Shown here one piece after another: positions 1 to 8,287 of a stretch of DNA of 23,126 bases. The stretch comes from a virus. The stretch's first letter is position 1. Every line of letters starts with the position of its first letter. The DNA lies in the IMG/VR virus record IMGVR_UViG_3300025889_000991, positions 1-23,126 of that record. One strand, given 5' to 3'. The position numbers and the translations under genes were made by a program. The notes under the pieces are model-generated. The model was given only the letters and a program-made list of their open reading frames with translations, was not told the DNA's origin and made no database searches.

Positions 1-861
1 TATTTTATGGTCTATAACATTGTTTGCGTATTGTACGTTAATGCTGTTTTCTGTTAGGTCTATATAAGTGTTTGCGGGTTGTAATCCTAATGCTGTGTAA
101 TTTACATCCGTGTTAGTTGTTATAATTAAATTAAAATCTATTTCTTGGGCTTCCGTAATAAACTGCCATTCGTTCGTGTTTTTGCCGAATAAAAAGCACT
201 TTGTAAATCTTGGGTCTGTTAAAAAAGTTCCTGTAAATGTTAGCCCGTAAGTGTTTTCTATTGCTTCAAATAACTTACTTACTTTAACTGCAGGAAAAAG
301 TTCATCATATTGGATAGCCCCTCCGTTTGTTGTTATGTCTTCGGCTGTAGCATCGCCATACGTCCAAAATCTTGTATTTGCTATTAGTGGATAGCGTACG
401 TCGTAGTCTGTAGCCGTGTCCGTAATTCTGTTGTATATCTCTGTGCCGTCATAGGCGAATTCTAACGAAGTTAAATCCAAGTTGTTAAGCTTATCTTCGC
501 CAAAGGCATCTTTAAGCGTTCTAATGTCGCCATAGAACGTTATAGTGTAGCTTTCTACGTGTCCGTCTTTTAGGTTCGCTTTTTCTAGTTGTATTTTTCC
601 CCTTCTAAAATCTGTTAAGTCTATTTCTATTTTTGCCCTTCTTCGTATGTTGTGGTCTATTGTTCCATCTACGTCACTTTGATAAAAGTGTTCAAAAATT
701 TCATTATTATAAGGGCTTGCAGGTACGGTAAAAGATTGGCTAAAGTCTGTAAATACTTTGCTTATGTCTGCGATGTTTTGAACTGAACTATTAACGCTTA
801 TTTGTTCATCTTGAAATAGTTCTAATCTTCGGCCTTCTATGTATACTTGTACGCTTCGCAT
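1..861 (-). CDS. Phage tail/baseplate-type protein, 3' end outside window
   Basis: The frame is open from an ATG at 861 to the window edge, giving at least 286 residues without a stop; the C-terminus is missing. The N-terminal part contains DFSQSFTVPASPYNNEIFEH, followed by FRRGKIQLEKANLKDG and a YTITFYGD strand. I associate this block from memory with a family found next to tail genes of Flavobacterium and Cellulophaga phages, usually annotated as structural, tail-fibre or baseplate-like. The start codon overlaps the upstream gene's stop in a TAATG junction, which supports both the start and co-translation. The sequence is rich in beta-type stretches and has no signal peptide or membrane segment. 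The virion role rests on family resemblance and position; no biochemical motif is visible. Confidence 0.7.
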   Translation of the reverse strand, partial: MRSVQVYIEGRRLELFQDEQISVNSSVQNIADISKVFTDFSQSFTVPASPYNNEIFEHFYQSDVDGTIDHNIRRRAKIEIDLTDFRRGKIQLEKANLKDGHVESYTITFYGDIRTLKDAFGEDKLNNLDLTSLEFAYDGTEIYNRITDTATDYDVRYPLIANTRFWTYGDATAEDITTNGGAIQYDELFPAVKVSKLFEAIENTYGLTFTGTFLTDPRFTKCFLFGKNTNEWQFITEAQEIDFNLIITTNTDVNYTALGLQPANTYIDLTENSINVQYANNVIDHKI

Positions 862-1937
862 TATATTACGCTGTTAATTGAATTGTAAGCAAATTGGAAT
901 TCTAGTTGATAGTTTATAGTTCCTTTGTTTATTCCTTTGAATAGTTCCGTGTTTTTGGTGTTTAGTTGGGCAGGTTTTCCGTCTATTAAAATTCTTTCGC
1001 TAAACATTAAATCTTGAATAACATTCTTGTAAGATTCTTTTACCCAATCAGTATTAACTTTTATTTTTTTAGTTCCGTTTACGTTAAAGATTTTTCTTTG
1101 TCCTTCTTGTGTGTCGTAGCTTGGCAAAGTAGATTGTAATAAATTGTATTCCGTGTTTTCTACGCCTAAAGAATCCGTACTAACTGCAAAGAACCAAGTA
1201 CGTTGCCATGCGCCATATTTATTAACAAAGTCACAAGCTACAGGAATGTATTTAGGAACGCATTTAGGAACCATTGTAAAGCTGTGTACTACGTTTAATC
1301 CTGCATCTATTATTTCAACTAAATTGCCGTCTGCATAGTAAAGCGGATAAACTCTGTAAAGGTCGTACCAATCGTCAGAAACTATGCTATAACTAAAAGA
1401 AGCCGCTGTTACTAAATTCGTATATTTTACATCGAATCCGTTTTCTAAATAACAAGTTGCTATTCCGCCATTGTAAAGAATTCCACTAGGCGCTGTTAAA
1501 GTTATATCAGGGTCGTAAGGATAATAATACGTTTCGCTGTCTAAATGATAGTTTCCTAAATCGTAATTGCTTCCGTCTTCGTATAGTGTGTAGCCATCAA
1601 AAGCAAAGTAATTAGTAGTATCTAAAAGCGTATCTACGCCTACTACTGTTTTATAACGTTTTATTTGTACGTTGCAGTATTCGTCTGTACTTGTAAGCTT
1701 TGCGTTCGTGTTATAGTTGTTTAAATAAGTTGCGTGGCTTATGTATTCACGAATATAAGGGCTTACATTATAAAGCGTTTGCAAGTTTGTTGAAGATGGA
1801 ATACTTTTACTTAAAGTATACGTAGCACTAGCAGGTACGCTACCTGTGTTCCAAAGATAAATTTCTATTTTAGAAGCCGTTTGATTTAATTCGTTTACTT
1901 CTATTATGTAGGGGCTTCGTGCAAATATGTTACTCAT
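861..1937 (-). CDS. Probable phage tail structural protein (358 aa)
   Basis: A complete 358-residue protein opening MSNIFARSPYIIEV. It is rich in Tyr, Asn, Thr and Ser, with alternating hydrophobic residues suggesting a beta-sandwich. The phrase ARSPYIIEVNELNQTASKIE begins a block I recognise as recurrent in Bacteroidetes phages, where it neighbours the SFTVPASPYNNEIF-type tail protein, as it does here. No enzyme motif, signal peptide or membrane helix is visible. Its ATG overlaps the stop of the upstream gene as ATGA, and its own stop overlaps the next start as TAATG, so it belongs to one translationally coupled tail operon. A distal tail, tube or adhesion role is inferred from context only. 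Confidence 0.65.
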   Translation of the reverse strand: MSNIFARSPYIIEVNELNQTASKIEIYLWNTGSVPASATYTLSKSIPSSTNLQTLYNVSPYIREYISHATYLNNYNTNAKLTSTDEYCNVQIKRYKTVVGVDTLLDTTNYFAFDGYTLYEDGSNYDLGNYHLDSETYYYPYDPDITLTAPSGILYNGGIATCYLENGFDVKYTNLVTAASFSYSIVSDDWYDLYRVYPLYYADGNLVEIIDAGLNVVHSFTMVPKCVPKYIPVACDFVNKYGAWQRTWFFAVSTDSLGVENTEYNLLQSTLPSYDTQEGQRKIFNVNGTKKIKVNTDWVKESYKNVIQDLMFSERILIDGKPAQLNTKNTELFKGINKGTINYQLEFQFAYNSINSVI

Positions 1938-2443
1938 TTCTTTAAGTTTTCTCTTGTTATTTCATCAAATAATTGAAGCATATCTAGTCCGTATTTTTCC
2001 ACAAGTTGGTTAGGCAATCTTTTAAACGCTGATTCAAATGGCTTTGTAAAAAATAAACTTGGCTTTAATCCTTTTTGCCATATTGAACGAACTATTAAAT
2101 GTGCTGTAGATTCGTGACTTGTATATCTTCCTTTTTTATCTCTAAATTGTATGTTTTTTCTTTTTACCCATTCTAAAATGCCTTTCCTTAATCCTCCTTT
2201 TTCTCCCGAACCTGTGCCAAATTTAAAGCCGCCTGTTCCTGAAGAAACGCCTGCTACACCTTGGTCTTGAAAGAATCCATAATCAGGCATTTCAAAAGAT
2301 ATTTGAATACTATTCTTTGATTCTTTAACGTAGCCTGTTATATTTTCTTTTAGGTTTCCTGTATTGGTAGGAGCGTTCGCCTTCGCTTGTTGTATAACGT
2401 AGTCTTTGAATTCATTTAAAAAATCTTGTACATTCTTTAACAT
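1934..2443 (-). CDS. HK97 gp10-like head-tail/tail completion protein
   Basis: A 169-residue protein opening MLKNVQDFLNEFKDYV, then AKANAPTNTGNLKENITGYV. The 'A(K)xxAPxxTGxLxxxI' signature is typical of HK97 gp10-type and minor tail proteins, which act at the head-tail or tail-terminator interface. A Gly-rich stretch near residues 60-85 (VSSGTGGFKFGTGSGEKGG) is probably a loop. The C-terminal half has basic and aromatic residues, ending in an amphipathic segment. It sits between a putative tail completion protein (7-nt overlap) and a tail structural protein (ATGA overlap), which fits the family. The assignment rests on the APxxTGxL motif, size and position. Confidence 0.65.
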   Translation of the reverse strand: MLKNVQDFLNEFKDYVIQQAKANAPTNTGNLKENITGYVKESKNSIQISFEMPDYGFFQDQGVAGVSSGTGGFKFGTGSGEKGGLRKGILEWVKRKNIQFRDKKGRYTSHESTAHLIVRSIWQKGLKPSLFFTKPFESAFKRLPNQLVEKYGLDMLQLFDEITRENLKK

Positions 2444-2892
2444 ATCGTCATATCATTAGGTAGTAATACGTCAAAGGTCATTGTCCAACCTGCCAATTTG
2501 TTTTCGAATCTGTCTATAAATGGTTCGCAGTTTGGGTCGCCTGTTATTTGATATTTATCGTCGTATAAATCGCCCCTTCTTAAGAATTCGTACATTCTAT
2601 TCAATACAGCTAACTGCGTATTTAATACGTCTACTTCATTATCATTGCCTGTAAATAAATCTTCGGTTTCGTCTTTTGATATGTCCACAATATCCATAGC
2701 TAATACGCTAATGTTTGCTTGTTGAACGTTATTAACAAACTGCACGTTATTAACTATGATATGGACCAAAGGAAATATAGTTTGTTTGTTTAGGTCTACT
2801 CTGAAAATATCGCCCTGCGTTACTGTATTCACTATAGGGTCTGCTTCAAAGTGTTCTTTCATTCGTGTTATTAAGTCGTAGTAACCTGTCAT
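2437..2892 (-). CDS. Putative tail completion/terminator-type protein (151 aa)
   Basis: A 151-residue protein opening MTGYYDLITRMKEHF and containing NKQTIFPLVHIIVNNVQF. It has an alternating alpha/beta pattern and an acidic middle (DISKDETEDLF). The layout, an N-terminal helix, strands that pass judgement on a 'P(L/I)VHI' segment, and a C-terminal strand (GWTMTFDVLLPND), resembles small tail-completion or tail-terminator proteins of siphophages, but I cannot name the family with certainty. Its ATG overlaps the stop of the -1 frame of the upstream chaperone-like gene as ATGA (TGA at 2891-2889, ATG at 2892). This is strong contextual evidence that the -1 frame there is really translated. The function is inferred. 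Confidence 0.55.
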   Translation of the reverse strand: MTGYYDLITRMKEHFEADPIVNTVTQGDIFRVDLNKQTIFPLVHIIVNNVQFVNNVQQANISVLAMDIVDISKDETEDLFTGNDNEVDVLNTQLAVLNRMYEFLRRGDLYDDKYQITGDPNCEPFIDRFENKLAGWTMTFDVLLPNDMTIC

Positions 2893-3164
2893 TTTCTATA
2901 TTGTTTTCTTATTTCGTTGTTTTCAATTTGGTTCTTTTGCTTTTCGAACGTGAGATAGGTGAGACATTTAGTAAGGGGTAATCTTGTAACCTCGTCAAAT
3001 TTCGTGAGGTCTCCTTTAGCGATTCCATAAATACTTCCATACCATCCCCATCGTTTATTGAATTGTCCTCGTTCTGTGAAATCGCTGAAATTATGTTGTT
3101 CGTCTTCATCTCGCGTTGTAAATAGTTCAGTGTAGCTGTTAATAATTCGCTTCCTAAACTCCAA
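2889..3164 (-). CDS. -1 frameshift extension of the tail-assembly-chaperone-like gene
   Basis: This is the -1 frame overlapping the end of the 3652 gene. It is open for 91 codons and could begin only at a TTG (3164), so normal initiation is unlikely. Its C-terminal half reads WGWYGSIYGIAKGDLTKFDE, followed by TRLPLTKCLTYLTFEKQKN. That is Trp/Tyr-rich, with the look of a folded domain and familiar to me from tail-chaperone-like proteins of Bacteroidetes phages; the overlapping 0-frame tail is Ser/Lys-rich and looks less protein-like. Its TGA (2891-2889) overlaps the next ATG as ATGA, the coupling used throughout this genome. A slip at the T9 run joins 163 residues of the 0-frame to about 91 here, giving a product of about 254 aa. 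Internal initiation at TTG, or a homopolymer sequencing error, are the alternatives. Confidence 0.6.
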   Translation of the reverse strand: MEFRKRIINSYTELFTTRDEDEQHNFSDFTERGQFNKRWGWYGSIYGIAKGDLTKFDEVTRLPLTKCLTYLTFEKQKNQIENNEIRKQYRK

Positions 3165-3652
3165 AAAAAAAGAAAGGCACCTATTGAAACGCCTAACGGG
3201 GCAAACTTCATTAATTCCTGCATATCTGCATTAGGCTCATATTCTGATATGTCGTAATTTTCGCCTGTTCTTTTAGTTATTGGTCTGTACATTACTGCCA
3301 TCGCTTTGTGGAAATTGTCCCAATCTTGTAAATAGTTTTCTAAATCTACGTATTCACCAAAAGTTATTTCTTCTAAATTGGGTATAAATCCAAATTCGTG
3401 TTCTTCTATTTTAAAAGACTTTTCTAAAAATGGCTTTCTTTTAAACAATTCTGTAAAGTGTGCTATTAACTTGTTTAAATCATTAAACTTAATTTTTGCT
3501 ATTTCTGATAACTTAATAGCGCAGAAAATTTCAATCATTTTTTGTGCTATGAATTCTTCGTCGTTCGAATTCTTTTGAACTTTTAAAAATTGTTGATACC
3601 TACTTAATGGTATTTCATTTAAGGATGTTGGGACTTTTAAATCTACCTTCAT
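2909..3652 (-). CDS. Tail-assembly-chaperone-like protein, 0-frame product (247 aa)
   Basis: A 247-residue 0-frame product opening MKVDLKVPTSLNEIPLSRYQ. Residues 85-125 (EFGFIPNLEEITFGEYVDLE, then WDNFHKAMAVMYRP) form a conserved-looking core that I associate with tail-assembly-chaperone-like proteins of Bacteroidetes phages. Residues 148-170 are hydrophobic. At codons 162-163 the message contains nine Ts, a perfect place for -1 slippage; the -1 frame continues as a Trp-rich domain. Downstream of the slip the 0-frame becomes low-complexity (SRSKSKRTKLKTTK). The arrangement mirrors the lambda gpG/gpGT logic, in which a minor frameshifted product carries a second domain. It lies 31 nt after the large terminase and precedes tail genes. 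The family call is moderate and the dual-frame structure is directly visible. Confidence 0.6.
   Translation of the reverse strand: MKVDLKVPTSLNEIPLSRYQQFLKVQKNSNDEEFIAQKMIEIFCAIKLSEIAKIKFNDLNKLIAHFTELFKRKPFLEKSFKIEEHEFGFIPNLEEITFGEYVDLENYLQDWDNFHKAMAVMYRPITKRTGENYDISEYEPNADMQELMKFAPLGVSIGAFLFFWSLGSELLTATLNYLQREMKTNNIISAISQNEDNSINDGDGMEVFMESLKETSRNLTRLQDYPLLNVSPISRSKSKRTKLKTTK
3163..3171 (-). promoter_or_regulatory. Candidate -1 ribosomal frameshift site (T9 slippery run)
   Basis: On the minus strand the message reads C-TTTTTTTTT-GG. In the 0-frame the heptamer T TTT TTT occupies 3170-3164, so both tRNAs can re-pair after a -1 slip. Reading then passes from TTT|TGG|AGT to TTT|TTG|GAG. The -1 frame is open for 91 codons and ends in an ATGA overlap with the next gene. 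No clear downstream pseudoknot was identified by eye. Confidence 0.55.
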
Positions 3653-3683: not shown

Positions 3684-4847
3684 TTACCTGATATTGTAAG
3701 AGCCATAATTAGCCCTTATTCCGATTGTTTCCATTTCGTGATAACGTAGCGCATCAATAGCGTGATTGAAATGGTCTATAGGCTTGTTTAGTTTAACGCC
3801 TTGTTTGTCTATATCCCAAATATAAGAACGCAGTTCTTTGATTAGATTAGTGCTGTCTTTTGTTACTAGATATTCCTGTTGTTGCATTATGTCAATGCCG
3901 TAGTTTATAGAATCTTTTCCTTTTGTTACGCCTTTAATCGTCTTTCCGTGCCTGCGTATTTCATCTATTGATTTTGGTTCAGCTGAATCCGCATATATTG
4001 GAACATTGTTAGGAAGCACTTTAGCGATGTCGCTGTTTAACATTCCTGTTTGATATTTAAGTTCGTTTAGTATTCGTTTGCCGTTATAGTTGTAAACTTC
4101 TATAATTGCTGTAGGGTCATTCGTATAACCGAAGTCAAGACCTATTCCAATTAAACGCGCTTCGTTTGGCAGTTTGTCAATCTGTTGCCAATTGCTAAAT
4201 ATAACGCCTTCTAAACTTCCTACCTGACCTTCACCGTAGACTTTCCACCAATTAGCCCAAAAATTAGAAGTCTTTGCCTTTTCTTTATTCTTTTCTATTT
4301 GCTTAACGATTGATTCGTCTAGTGCTTCGTTATCCTTATAAGTTAAGATTATAAAGTCTGCATCGGGTTCGTCTTTTAGTTCGGTGTGTACCCAAAATTC
4401 GTTACTTGGATTAAAATCTAAATAAACTTCCCGTTTCGTTCTAATTGCAAGTTCATTGTAGGCCTGAAAGCTTATGTTATTACATTCGTTTATGTAAAGA
4501 ATGTCTCTACGCGCACCCCGTAATTTACTTGAATCGTCAGCGCTAAAAAACTCTATAAAGCTTCCGTTTATAAATTCGTATTTTAGTAGGCTTCTATTAA
4601 AGCTGTTTGGATTGTAGCGACCGCCCCATCGCATTATTTTTTCAAAGTCACGTAAAGCACCCCTACGCAAGTGCGGTATTGATTCGGCAACTACGCTTAT
4701 TTCTAAATCAGGAATATGCATAGCCTTATTAGATAATACCCACAAAATAGAAAACGTTTTAGAAGCAGAAGTTCCGCCCTGTACTATTTTAGTTCGCTTT
4801 GTTAATTTATGAATCTTGCGAAGTGCTGTCGTTTCCGTCAGGTTCAT
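3684..4847 (-). CDS. terL: Terminase large subunit (ATPase-nuclease packaging motor)
   Basis: A 387-residue protein with the full terminase layout. A Walker A variant, GGTSASKT, lies at residues 24-31. A Walker B-like ILYINE is at 116-121 with Glu121 as the likely catalytic carboxylate, and a coupling-motif-like YLDFNPSNEFW follows at 142-152. The RNase H-like nuclease domain shows Asp238 (GLDFGYTNDPTA), Asp287 (YADSAEP) and Asp365 (HAIDALRY). It pumps DNA into proheads at the portal and cuts concatemers. The gene overlaps the small terminase by 41 nt; the chaperone-like gene follows after 31 nt. The lysine position in Walker A (SKT instead of GKT/GKS) is common in Bacteroidetes phage terminases. 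The portal gene is far away, near 22 kb. Confidence 0.95.
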   Translation of the reverse strand: MNLTETTALRKIHKLTKRTKIVQGGTSASKTFSILWVLSNKAMHIPDLEISVVAESIPHLRRGALRDFEKIMRWGGRYNPNSFNRSLLKYEFINGSFIEFFSADDSSKLRGARRDILYINECNNISFQAYNELAIRTKREVYLDFNPSNEFWVHTELKDEPDADFIILTYKDNEALDESIVKQIEKNKEKAKTSNFWANWWKVYGEGQVGSLEGVIFSNWQQIDKLPNEARLIGIGLDFGYTNDPTAIIEVYNYNGKRILNELKYQTGMLNSDIAKVLPNNVPIYADSAEPKSIDEIRRHGKTIKGVTKGKDSINYGIDIMQQQEYLVTKDSTNLIKELRSYIWDIDKQGVKLNKPIDHFNHAIDALRYHEMETIGIRANYGSYNIR

Positions 4848-5223
4848 TTAAATCAAAAAATGGTAATTCTATATTTGTTTGTTCTACTTGTTGAATAGGC
4901 GCACCGTAACCTGAATCCATTAACGCTTTATAAGCAGCTACATCGCCCTCTCTTGCTTTTTTAATTAATGCCAAAGTCATTAAATCTTCTTGGCTCATTG
5001 TTTCGTTTTCGCCTGTTAAAGGATTCTTTAAGTTTTGATTTACTTCAAGCCAATACTTCGCTATTGTGCTTCTATTCTTACTTCCTTTTGGCCTTCCGTT
5101 AGGGTTTCCGCTTTCGCCTTTTTTGAATTCGTGTTTTTTTATGTCTTTTGCGCTCATTGTGCTGTAATTGTGCTGTTTTTTACTATTAATCTTTGCTCTT
5201 TTTGTCATTTTGTTCAATTTCAA
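4807..5223 (-). CDS. terS: Terminase small subunit-like DNA-binding protein
   Basis: A 138-residue protein with KKHEFKKGESGNPNGRPKGS, the 'KGxSGNPxGRPKGSKN' signature of DUF5681-type proteins that commonly precede terL. A helical middle (LTLALIKKAREGDVAAYKAL) and an acidic C-terminus (FFDLNEPDGND) follow. It should recognise packaging DNA and load TerL. It overlaps terL by 41 nt and the end of the ParB-methyltransferase gene by 38 nt. The first ATG is at 5223; a later ATG at 5208 (MTKRAK) or at MSAKDIKK would still keep the signature, so the exact start is uncertain. Confidence 0.8.
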   Translation of the reverse strand: MKLNKMTKRAKINSKKQHNYSTMSAKDIKKHEFKKGESGNPNGRPKGSKNRSTIAKYWLEVNQNLKNPLTGENETMSQEDLMTLALIKKAREGDVAAYKALMDSGYGAPIQQVEQTNIELPFFDLNEPDGNDSTSQDS

Positions 5224-6472
5224 TTATAGGAAATATATTTTTTATTTCTTTTGTATTTCCTTTATAAAATACTAAAACATTTTGATGACATTTACCTACT
5301 TTTCTTTGTGTCATAAATCTTTGAACTCTTTGTGGTAGTGTCCCCAAACTTTCAATTAATATAAGTTCATTATATAGCTTCATTCCATTTTTAATAAATA
5401 TGCGCTTAATATCTTCTATAAAGTTGTAATAATATCCGTCTTTATCTCGAACATCACCAACTGTAATAACCGCAAACCTATTTTCTTTTAAACATTTAAT
5501 AGCATTTGTAAAAGCACTTTTAATTATTTCTATAAAATCTTCATAACTTTCTTGATTGCTAGCATCGTTTTCTAAATCTGAATACACTTCTAAATCAAAA
5601 TAGGGCGGACAACTAAATAATAAATCTTGTGAATTTTCTTTGATATGGTTTAAAACATTTCTCCCATCATCACAAATATATTTAGCACTGAATCCTTTTA
5701 CTCTTTCATTATTTAATTTAGCTTGTTCTTGGCGTAATTCAATACCTGTAAAATTATTACCTAAATAACTGCTTACATAGCCAAACACGGTATCACCCGC
5801 AAAACAATCAAAAGTATTACATTTTTCTAATCCAAACCATTTATTTGTAATTTCAGCTAAAACAGGGTCGAGAATTGAAACGCTTGGCATTTCATTCATA
5901 ACACTTTTTTCACTACTTGTAGAATTGTGTAAAGTGTTTTCTCTGCTTTCGCCAAAATCCTTAATTAAACTTTTCCAAAATTTTTTTCGTTCAATCCAAT
6001 AACCCTGTCTTGTATCTAAAATTGAAAAAGGCGGAATTATAAATTTTTCTTGTAGTTTTTCGTGTGCTATTACTTCTTTGTCTTCTTCTTCTATGCTTAC
6101 ATCAATGGGCAAATCTAATCCCCAATCATCTAATTTTTCTGTGTCCCATTCATTAGCTAACATATCCCAATCCCATTCTCCGAAGCCTACGTTATCTTTA
6201 ATTAAGAATTCGTGTTTTTGTTCTTCCGTCCATTCGTCTGCTACTATAATTGGAGCTTCCTTATATTTTAGCTCTTTTAAGGCTTTTAAGCGCATATTTC
6301 CACCCAAGACAACGTATTTACCGTCTTTGTCAGTAAAAGCGACTATAGGGCGTTTATTTAGCATATCAGGAAATTCCTGAATGCTTTTTAAAAGCTTCTT
6401 GTACTTTTCGTCTCTTATTATTCTTGGGTTATTCGGATTCGTTTTTATATCCGTTATTTTTACTTTTATCAT
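5186..6472 (-). CDS. ParB-like nuclease domain fused to DNA methyltransferase
   Basis: A 428-residue two-domain protein. Residues 1-95 are ParB/Srx-like, with TNPNNPR (11-17) and LGGNMRLKALKEL (56-68), the ParB box region. A linker to about 140 is acidic. The C-terminal part carries methyltransferase motifs: FDCFAGDTVFG (221-231, SAM-binding motif I), FTGIELRQEQ (241-250), and FSCPPYF (286-292, catalytic motif IV). The S-C-P-P-Y form is closest to DNA methylases with SPPY/NPPY motifs, so the target (N4-cytosine or N6-adenine) is unclear. ParB-methylase fusions are common in phages and are thought to modify phage DNA against host restriction. No restriction enzyme gene is adjacent. It directly precedes terS, with overlapping ends. 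Confidence 0.85.
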   Translation of the reverse strand: MIKVKITDIKTNPNNPRIIRDEKYKKLLKSIQEFPDMLNKRPIVAFTDKDGKYVVLGGNMRLKALKELKYKEAPIIVADEWTEEQKHEFLIKDNVGFGEWDWDMLANEWDTEKLDDWGLDLPIDVSIEEEDKEVIAHEKLQEKFIIPPFSILDTRQGYWIERKKFWKSLIKDFGESRENTLHNSTSSEKSVMNEMPSVSILDPVLAEITNKWFGLEKCNTFDCFAGDTVFGYVSSYLGNNFTGIELRQEQAKLNNERVKGFSAKYICDDGRNVLNHIKENSQDLLFSCPPYFDLEVYSDLENDASNQESYEDFIEIIKSAFTNAIKCLKENRFAVITVGDVRDKDGYYYNFIEDIKRIFIKNGMKLYNELILIESLGTLPQRVQRFMTQRKVGKCHQNVLVFYKGNTKEIKNIFPIIEIEQNDKKSKD

Positions 6473-6659
6473 TACTTAATCTAAATAAATTTAAAAATTC
6501 GTCTTCGTCTACTTCTTCGCAGCAAAATAAGTTTTCGCTATCTGTTTCAAAGTGTAAAAAGTGTAGTCCGTCTTTCTGTAGCTTTTCGATAATCATTTTA
6601 GCGTAGTCGTGCATATTTTCGCCACTATCCAAAATAAAGTATTTATTCTCCGTACTCAT
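6429..6659 (-). CDS. Small acidic protein, unknown function (76 aa)
   Basis: A 76-residue acidic protein opening MSTENKYFILDSGENMHDYA. It contains LHFLHFETDSENLFCCEEVD, including a Cys-Cys pair. The C-terminal tail is polar (SNDKSKNNGYKNESE). No known family is recognised. It overlaps both neighbours (17 nt with the upstream Cys-rich gene, 44 nt with the ParB-methyltransferase), so it is probably translated as part of the same operon. The start at 6659 lies inside the upstream gene; no alternative is clearly better. Confidence 0.6.
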   Translation of the reverse strand: MSTENKYFILDSGENMHDYAKMIIEKLQKDGLHFLHFETDSENLFCCEEVDEDEFLNLFRLSNDKSKNNGYKNESE

Positions 6660-7041
6660 CGTAAACCTTTTTTAGTTTGCTTATTGTGTCGCGCCAACAA
6701 GAACCGCAGCTTGAAGACATTTGAACACGTTGATTAAATACCCTTTGATAGATTTCGCTTAATACTGCTTGTTCGCTTACGCTTATTGTATTTTTTCTTT
6801 CACGATTATAGAATTCGTTTAAATAGTTGTATTCGTGTTCTAGTAGGCAGTTCGGCTTTTTGTATGGGAACATTCTATTAAGCTTTGCTTTACGTTCTTC
6901 ACATCCGCAATCTTCGCCTAGTATAAACTTGGCTACCTTTGAAACGCCTGTAGCTTCTAAAACTTGTTCTACAGTATCGCCTAATCCTTCGGCTTTTTTC
7001 GTTCGTCTTTTTCTTGTTGTTGTTTTCGTTTTTTTTTCCAT
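6643..7041 (-). CDS. Cys-rich protein coupled to the sigma factor (132 aa)
   Basis: A 132-residue protein with a Lys/Arg/Thr-rich N-terminus (KKTKTTTRKRRTKKAEG), then GLGDTVEQVLEATGVSKVAK and LGEDCGCEERKAKLNRMF. It has a C-x-C pair near residue 45, another Cys near 60, and a C-terminal SSCGSCWRDTI (C-x-x-C), compatible with metal binding. The 'GLGDTVEQVLEATG..KVAKFILGEDCGCEERK' block seems recurrent in Flavobacteriia phages, but I know no proven function. Its ATG overlaps the sigma factor stop (TAATGG), so the two are coupled. A sigma-associated regulator or zinc-binding accessory protein is only a hypothesis. Confidence 0.7.
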   Translation of the reverse strand: MEKKTKTTTRKRRTKKAEGLGDTVEQVLEATGVSKVAKFILGEDCGCEERKAKLNRMFPYKKPNCLLEHEYNYLNEFYNRERKNTISVSEQAVLSEIYQRVFNQRVQMSSSCGSCWRDTISKLKKVYDEYGE

Positions 7042-7642: not shown

Positions 7643-8287
7643 TTAAAAAAGGCGTTGCTGTGCAATATGATTTTTTATTCTTTTAATAGAAGCTTCGTAA
7701 TAATCTTTATCAAGTTCGCAAGCTGTTAATTTAAATCCGTAATCGTGACAAGCTATCGCAATCGAACCACTACCTAAATGCGTATCAAGAATTTTATCTC
7801 CCTCTTTTGCGTAATGTTCTAAAAGCCATTTGTAAAGTCTAATAGGTTTTTGTGTTGGATGTTGAGTGCCACCTTCAATCATTAATTGCCCTCTATTTAT
7901 TATTTTTCTTCTTAACGCAACATCAAAGGAAGTGAAGGCGAGTTCCCCATCGCTCATCGTTAAATCTTGACCTTTATCCCAAAATACCCACCCCATTGAA
8001 CTTGGCAAATACTTTGTAAAGTAATTTGCACCCCATATAATCTGATTTTTTGAAACTCTAAATAACTCTTTAAAATATGCTTCGGTTGGTATTTCATTAT
8101 CCCATCCTTTATGCTCAAAATGTTTTCTTTTATGTTTTGGTTTTTTTGTAAAAGTTTCTGTTTGCCCACTTCTATTAATACCATAAGGAGGGTCTACTAT
8201 TGCTAAATCAAAATAGTTATCAGGATAACGAGCCATTAACTGCATATTATCCTCGTTTGTAATTGTTAGTTTATCTGTTACTTTCAT
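7643..8287 (-). CDS. Site-specific DNA methyltransferase, N6-adenine type
   Basis: A 214-residue methyltransferase with motif order IV before I, as in the beta class. DPPYG lies at residues 32-36 (motif IV) and DTHLGSGSIA at 168-177 (motif I, SAM binding). HPTQKP (143-148) precedes motif I, as is usual in this class. The DPPY motif favours N6-adenine methylation. Its ATG lies only about 6 nt after the terminator T-run of the upstream gene, so expression depends on read-through or on an unseen promoter. No restriction endonuclease is encoded nearby, consistent with an orphan phage enzyme that could protect phage DNA or alter host gene regulation. The recognition site cannot be read from the sequence. 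Confidence 0.92.
   Translation of the reverse strand: MKVTDKLTITNEDNMQLMARYPDNYFDLAIVDPPYGINRSGQTETFTKKPKHKRKHFEHKGWDNEIPTEAYFKELFRVSKNQIIWGANYFTKYLPSSMGWVFWDKGQDLTMSDGELAFTSFDVALRRKIINRGQLMIEGGTQHPTQKPIRLYKWLLEHYAKEGDKILDTHLGSGSIAIACHDYGFKLTACELDKDYYEASIKRIKNHIAQQRLF

Follow-up and report, generated by a model that had tools for sequence, protein, structure and literature searches.

In an IMG/VR virus record of 23,126 bases (the window, meaning the whole stretch of DNA analysed), a 247-aa gene next to the terminase large subunit gene contains a run of nine T's at which a switch into the -1 frame would replace its C-terminus with another one. Comparison with hundreds of related loci demonstrates that the two alternative ends are encoded by the same DNA and that both are under selection. 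The conserved switch into the -1 frame and a product joining the N-terminal domain to the -1 domain are well supported, and we infer from these comparisons that the fusion protein is in fact produced, that RNA polymerase rather than the ribosome makes the switch and that the products have a chaperone role. The joint reading, a two-product gene resembling lambda G/GT, switched most probably by polymerase slippage and acting in tail assembly, has in our estimate a probability of about 0.5.

All parts of the gene lie on the minus strand. The 0-frame gene (2909..3652) consists of an N-domain (codons 1-163; 3164..3652), corresponding to the putative G-like part common to both products, and a conserved 84-aa tail (2909..3163), and a profile search matched it to phrog_32199 (E=5e-14, residues 5-176). 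The T9 run (3163..3171, A9 on the plus strand) falls in codons 161-164 (CTT TTT TTT TGG) and embeds the heptamer T_TTT_TTT in the right register (3170..3164), where a ribosomal -1 shift could occur. From the run, the -1 frame continues for 91 codons (2889..3164) through a Trp/Tyr-rich, putatively T-like domain that has a WGWY motif and no Met codon, and its TGA stop (2891..2889) overlaps the ATG of the next gene (2892..2890) in an ATGA (2889..2892). In the third frame, a TAG (3154..3156) would terminate translation of a transcript with eight U's. Direct reading thus bears out the original prediction on the T9 run, its in-register heptamer and the extent, composition and ending of the -1 frame. 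The run by itself is unremarkable: four further nine-base A/T runs occur in the AT-rich window, and about 4.5 runs of this length are expected from dinucleotide shuffles. The signal above chance is the conservation of the run and of the frame relation, not the presence of T9. A further A9 on a coding (minus) strand lies at 7029-7037, just after the start of a 132-aa gene (6643..7041).

To determine how widely this arrangement is conserved, we scanned IMG/VR viral contigs for relatives with profiles for the N-domain and the -1 domain, which identified at least several hundred loci in a family that is larger still, at least 356 of them distinct and harboring both domains. Among the matches listed, the second domain lies in the -1 frame in 355 of 356 distinct relatives, and the run is T9 in 322 and T10 in 33 of these 355, with no shorter run. 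The -1 domain is 52-90% identical in relatives, and in alignments its conservation starts at the T run. The single exception is a locus (L105:478-1239) in which one more T, giving a T10 at 959-968, joins both domains in one open frame; it may be a genuine, constitutive fusion or result from a homopolymer error. This locus is the one point in favor of a sequencing or assembly indel in a gene that is truly single-frame, as would be the case if the number of T's were altered. Since the -1 relation is found in 355 distinct contigs among the matches listed and in two isolate genomes, and since both frames are under selection, that reading is already refuted for the family and has next to no probability here. 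At a further locus (L003:4489-4761), the -1 frame is interrupted by a stop at codon 13 while the remaining domain is intact, a possible case of decay or assembly error.

The -1 frame might instead be an overlapping gene in its own right, started independently and not fused, which is how the corresponding ORF of the Nonlabens phage P12024L (P12024L_41) is annotated, from an internal ATG. Across 172 non-redundant loci, an ATG is found within the first 40 codons of only five -1 domains, and 151 have no ATG, GTG or TTG in codons 2-40. With start codons missing from most loci, as Met codons are from the window's -1 domain, independent initiation is unlikely; it would also leave unexplained both the strict run and a conservation that begins there. 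Furthermore, single-frame versions seem to exist: besides L105, three BFVD proteins of 244-267 aa (A0A6J5N0W0, A0A516L5A8 and A0A6J5MY57) are matched by both domain models, which suggests that they are natural fusions of the N-domain and the -1 domain. A separate gene is therefore very improbable. The overlap of the -1 stop with an ATG, which the original prediction had noted as a recurrent form of coupling, is present in 121 of the 172 loci. Another candidate single-frame version, gp017 of Flavobacterium phage laban6-1, was rejected, as its C-terminus fails the -1 profile (hhalign probability 0.1); this 301-aa single-frame protein (L156:2656-3561) has a similar FLFF segment and a faint similarity to the N-domain (E=0.4).

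We next assessed the coding status of both frames after the run by resampling synonymous codons, drawn from the codon usage of the N-domain, to estimate how often either frame would be open by chance. With the 0-frame protein kept constant, an open -1 frame has a mean probability of 0.0008, which rules out chance; with the -1 protein kept constant, the mean probability of an open 0-frame is about 4e-5 per locus, but all 114 loci tested have one. Substitution patterns point the same way. In the 0.60 identity bin, third positions of the -1 frame, which are second positions of the 0-frame, show a divergence of 0.37, against 0.59 at free third positions, and fourfold sites differ by 8.2% in the overlap versus 23.6% upstream. 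In 50 disjoint pairs, none of 232 changes silent in the -1 frame creates a 0-frame stop (5% expected; P = 1.3e-5), and the share of them that are conservative in the 0-frame exceeds expectation (45% vs 34%; P = 8e-4). The overlap is thus dual-coding by these sequence measures, with the 0-frame tail as a genuine second C-terminus rather than the low-complexity filler that the original prediction took it for. The constraint on it is real but weaker than that on the -1 frame, with a tail identity of about 0.50 where that of the -1 domain is about 0.62; the -1 domain is the more conserved end, as had been supposed in calling it the real C-terminus, but it is not the only selected one, and the reverse situation, in which the 0-frame tail alone is conserved, does not hold. 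The tail continues past the site for a median of 63 selected codons (range 7-101; 172 non-redundant loci), whereas in lambda only 19 nt are shared between the annotated G and T genes. The corresponding distance averages 26 nt in a large collection of annotated phage frameshifts (PMC10274946).

A ribosomal -1 shift and the insertion of one U by the polymerase yield an identical fusion, so that protein sequence alone cannot decide between them. In the original prediction, the ribosome makes a canonical programmed -1 shift at U_UUU_UUU in a tail assembly chaperone gene, and part of the evidence agrees with this: T_TTT_TTT is in register in all 355 relatives among the matches listed, lambda G/GT and many phages are documented to use ribosomal -1 shifting, and the tail-gene shifts of the phages covered by the same source are ribosomal (PMC5009743). 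The codons of the [LVI]FF[WY] motif moreover provide flanking T's, and the T's beyond the heptamer could on this account reflect amino-acid constraint. Seven T's would suffice for the ribosome, yet runs of seven or eight are absent among the matches listed. Counted as T's upstream and downstream of the heptamer, the extra T's are (1,1) in 317 relatives, (1,2) in 21, (2,1) in 11, (0,2) in five and (0,3) in one, amounting to at least two in all 355 of these matches. In 173 non-redundant sequences, the upstream T has disappeared on four separate occasions, and in each case the run has two or three downstream T's instead of the usual one, so that the register shifts retain at least nine. On the tree of these sequences there are eight changes between T9 and T10, with T10 arising repeatedly and T8 never, and both Phe codons at the run are TTT in every sequence, compared with a general TTT usage of 68%. 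As the motif [LVI]FF[WYLF] and the heptamer together supply part of T9, the argument from run length rests mainly on the four register shifts and on the absence of T7 and T8.

No stimulatory RNA structure was detected downstream of the run in 60-nt windows at 60 loci (mean z of -0.23 to +0.22 versus shuffles), and no other slippery heptamer is used over the wide divergence of the relatives among the matches listed. In E. coli, U_UUU_UUU was found to be much less shift-prone than A_AAA_AAG, and highly efficient slippage of bacterial RNA polymerase has been reported on runs of nine A's or T's (PMC5009743). A run that always has nine or more T's, register shifts that preserve nine and the lack of downstream structure favor slippage by RNA polymerase, giving an mRNA with ten U's, over a ribosomal -1 shift; on this sequence evidence, the polymerase is probably responsible, and the ribosome is a substantial but distinctly less probable alternative. 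What stands of the original prediction is a conserved switch with the heptamer in register; the polymerase fits the length of the run and its surroundings better than the ribosome proposed there. The same slippage could produce transcripts one U shorter, in which reading stops 5-6 codons from the start of the run in 347 of 355 relatives among the matches listed, although this stop may merely follow from dual coding.

Slippage at such runs has precedents outside phage tail genes. In Thermus thermophilus dnaX and Citrobacter rodentium tssM1, transcriptional slippage at runs of nine or more A's or T's, like the one described here, produces mRNAs of variable length and two C-termini, which are both required in the case of tssM1 (PMC5009743; PMC4256274). 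The alternative frames of dnaX and tssM1 end at early stops, whereas both frames are long, overlapping and conserved in the present case.

The resemblance to lambda G/GT lies in architecture and setting. Both systems have a common N-domain, a C-terminal domain in the -1 frame and a location among the late structural genes of a phage that also encodes a tape-measure protein. The analogy drawn by the original prediction is a reasonable one. In lambda-type phages, the G and T parts bind the tape-measure protein and the major tail protein and are absent from the virion. The lambda slippery heptamer is G_GGA_AAG, unlike the T9 or T10 found here, and no significant sequence homology to lambda G/GT was found. 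In contrast to lambda G/GT, the gene is also not adjacent to the tape-measure gene.

In the window, the terminase large subunit gene (3684..4847; PF17288 and PF04466) lies directly upstream on the minus strand, and downstream on the same strand follow a 151-aa gene matching phrog_30964, of unknown function (2437..2892), a 169-aa gene whose weak profile matches make it a candidate HK97-gp10-like or connector protein (1934..2443), and a 358-aa gene of the same late block (861..1937), in an order conserved in relatives. The longer relatives extend this order from TerL, the two-ended gene, the 151-aa gene and the HK97-gp10-like gene to a gene of 349-370 aa, one of 755-797 aa, a tape-measure gene of 620-690 aa, a protease-like gene (labeled by eye), capsid and portal. 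The tape-measure gene, five genes downstream of the two-ended gene, was identified by profile in one relative (G002; E=5e-16) and also matched in P12024L; the window contig ends before this position, and the tape-measure evidence comes from relatives. Elsewhere in the window, inspection of translations by eye pointed to a 428-aa ORF (5186-6472) that combines a ParB-like N-terminal part with a part resembling a DNA methylase, and to a second methylase-like ORF (7643-8287).

Sequence and structure searches gave faint indications of function. The N-domain weakly matches phrog_166, annotated as tail protein, in 16 of 34 proteins (best E=2.6e-4), and a structural search of BFVD returned a faint match (E=0.28) to an entry bearing the name tail assembly chaperone, while the Pfam tail-chaperone models gave no significant match (Phage_TAC_7, E=0.12 for one member; Phage_p2_ORF12, E=0.029). 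Folded separately with AlphaFold (AF2), the N-domain is predicted with a pLDDT mostly of 80-91 and a helix extending into the 0-frame tail, and the -1 domain is predicted as all-helical (pLDDT 70). Structural comparison with the PDB yielded nothing beyond generic matches to helices, chiefly in the helical part 160-231, and PDB sequence searches gave nothing meaningful. Whichever machine makes the switch, the product might be something other than a tail assembly chaperone, for instance a packaging or neck factor, given its place directly after TerL and five genes from the tape-measure gene and the lack of significant Pfam matches. The two-product architecture, the tail matches of phrog_166, the faint structural match and the lack of any other chaperone candidate in the late block make such a role the less probable reading. 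By analogy in architecture and setting, a lambda G/GT-like tail assembly chaperone is the reading we hold with reasonable, if limited, confidence.

The only isolate relatives with a convincing match in the phage collection are the Nonlabens phages P12024L and P12024S (Inhavirus). As in the window, their N-domain (about 27% identity) lies directly after TerL, T9 stands at the equivalent position and the WGWY domain (about 31%) is encoded in the -1 frame; their 0-frame tail extends only 25 residues past the FF of the run. In both genomes, the two halves were deposited as separate hypothetical proteins (P12024L ORFs 40 and 41; P12024S ORFs 38 and 39), and PHROGs assigns them to two families of unknown function, phrog_32199 and phrog_38404; the deposited annotation thus missed the switch, as the original prediction had anticipated for automatic annotation. 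P12024L_40 and P12024L_41 (JQ823123.1, 23946-24640; L154:5995-6689) look like one recoded gene that could be re-annotated as such, as could P12024S_38 and P12024S_39. A scan of bacterial genome contigs returned no relative, and hence no prophage or host link; the gene family appears to belong to a large group of uncultured phages akin to flavobacterial phages.

Under the joint reading favored here, normal expression would give the 247-aa product, consisting of the N-domain and the 0-frame tail. RNA polymerase slipping on T9 would add one U, and a normally decoding ribosome would then read the -1 frame, giving a second product of about 254 aa in which the N-domain is joined to the helical WGWY domain, so that a stretch of roughly 80 codons would be read twice, once in each frame; a transcript with eight U's would give a truncated N-domain. 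The two longer products would act with the tape-measure protein as a tail assembly chaperone pair.

The lambda G/GT frameshift is a textbook case of recoding and is conserved across long-tailed phages. A literature search, with most subscription journals outside its reach, found no case joining a tail assembly chaperone with transcriptional or polymerase slippage. Together, these results correct the annotation of isolate genomes and PHROGs, which treat the two halves as unrelated proteins, and provide several hundred natural variants of one dual-coding region. They tentatively suggest that widespread phages make their chaperone pair by polymerase slippage at T9 or T10, with the two C-termini overlaid on the same DNA; transcripts with eight U's might add a truncated third product. 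If the polymerase does make the switch, the ratio of the products would matter more than which machine makes them.
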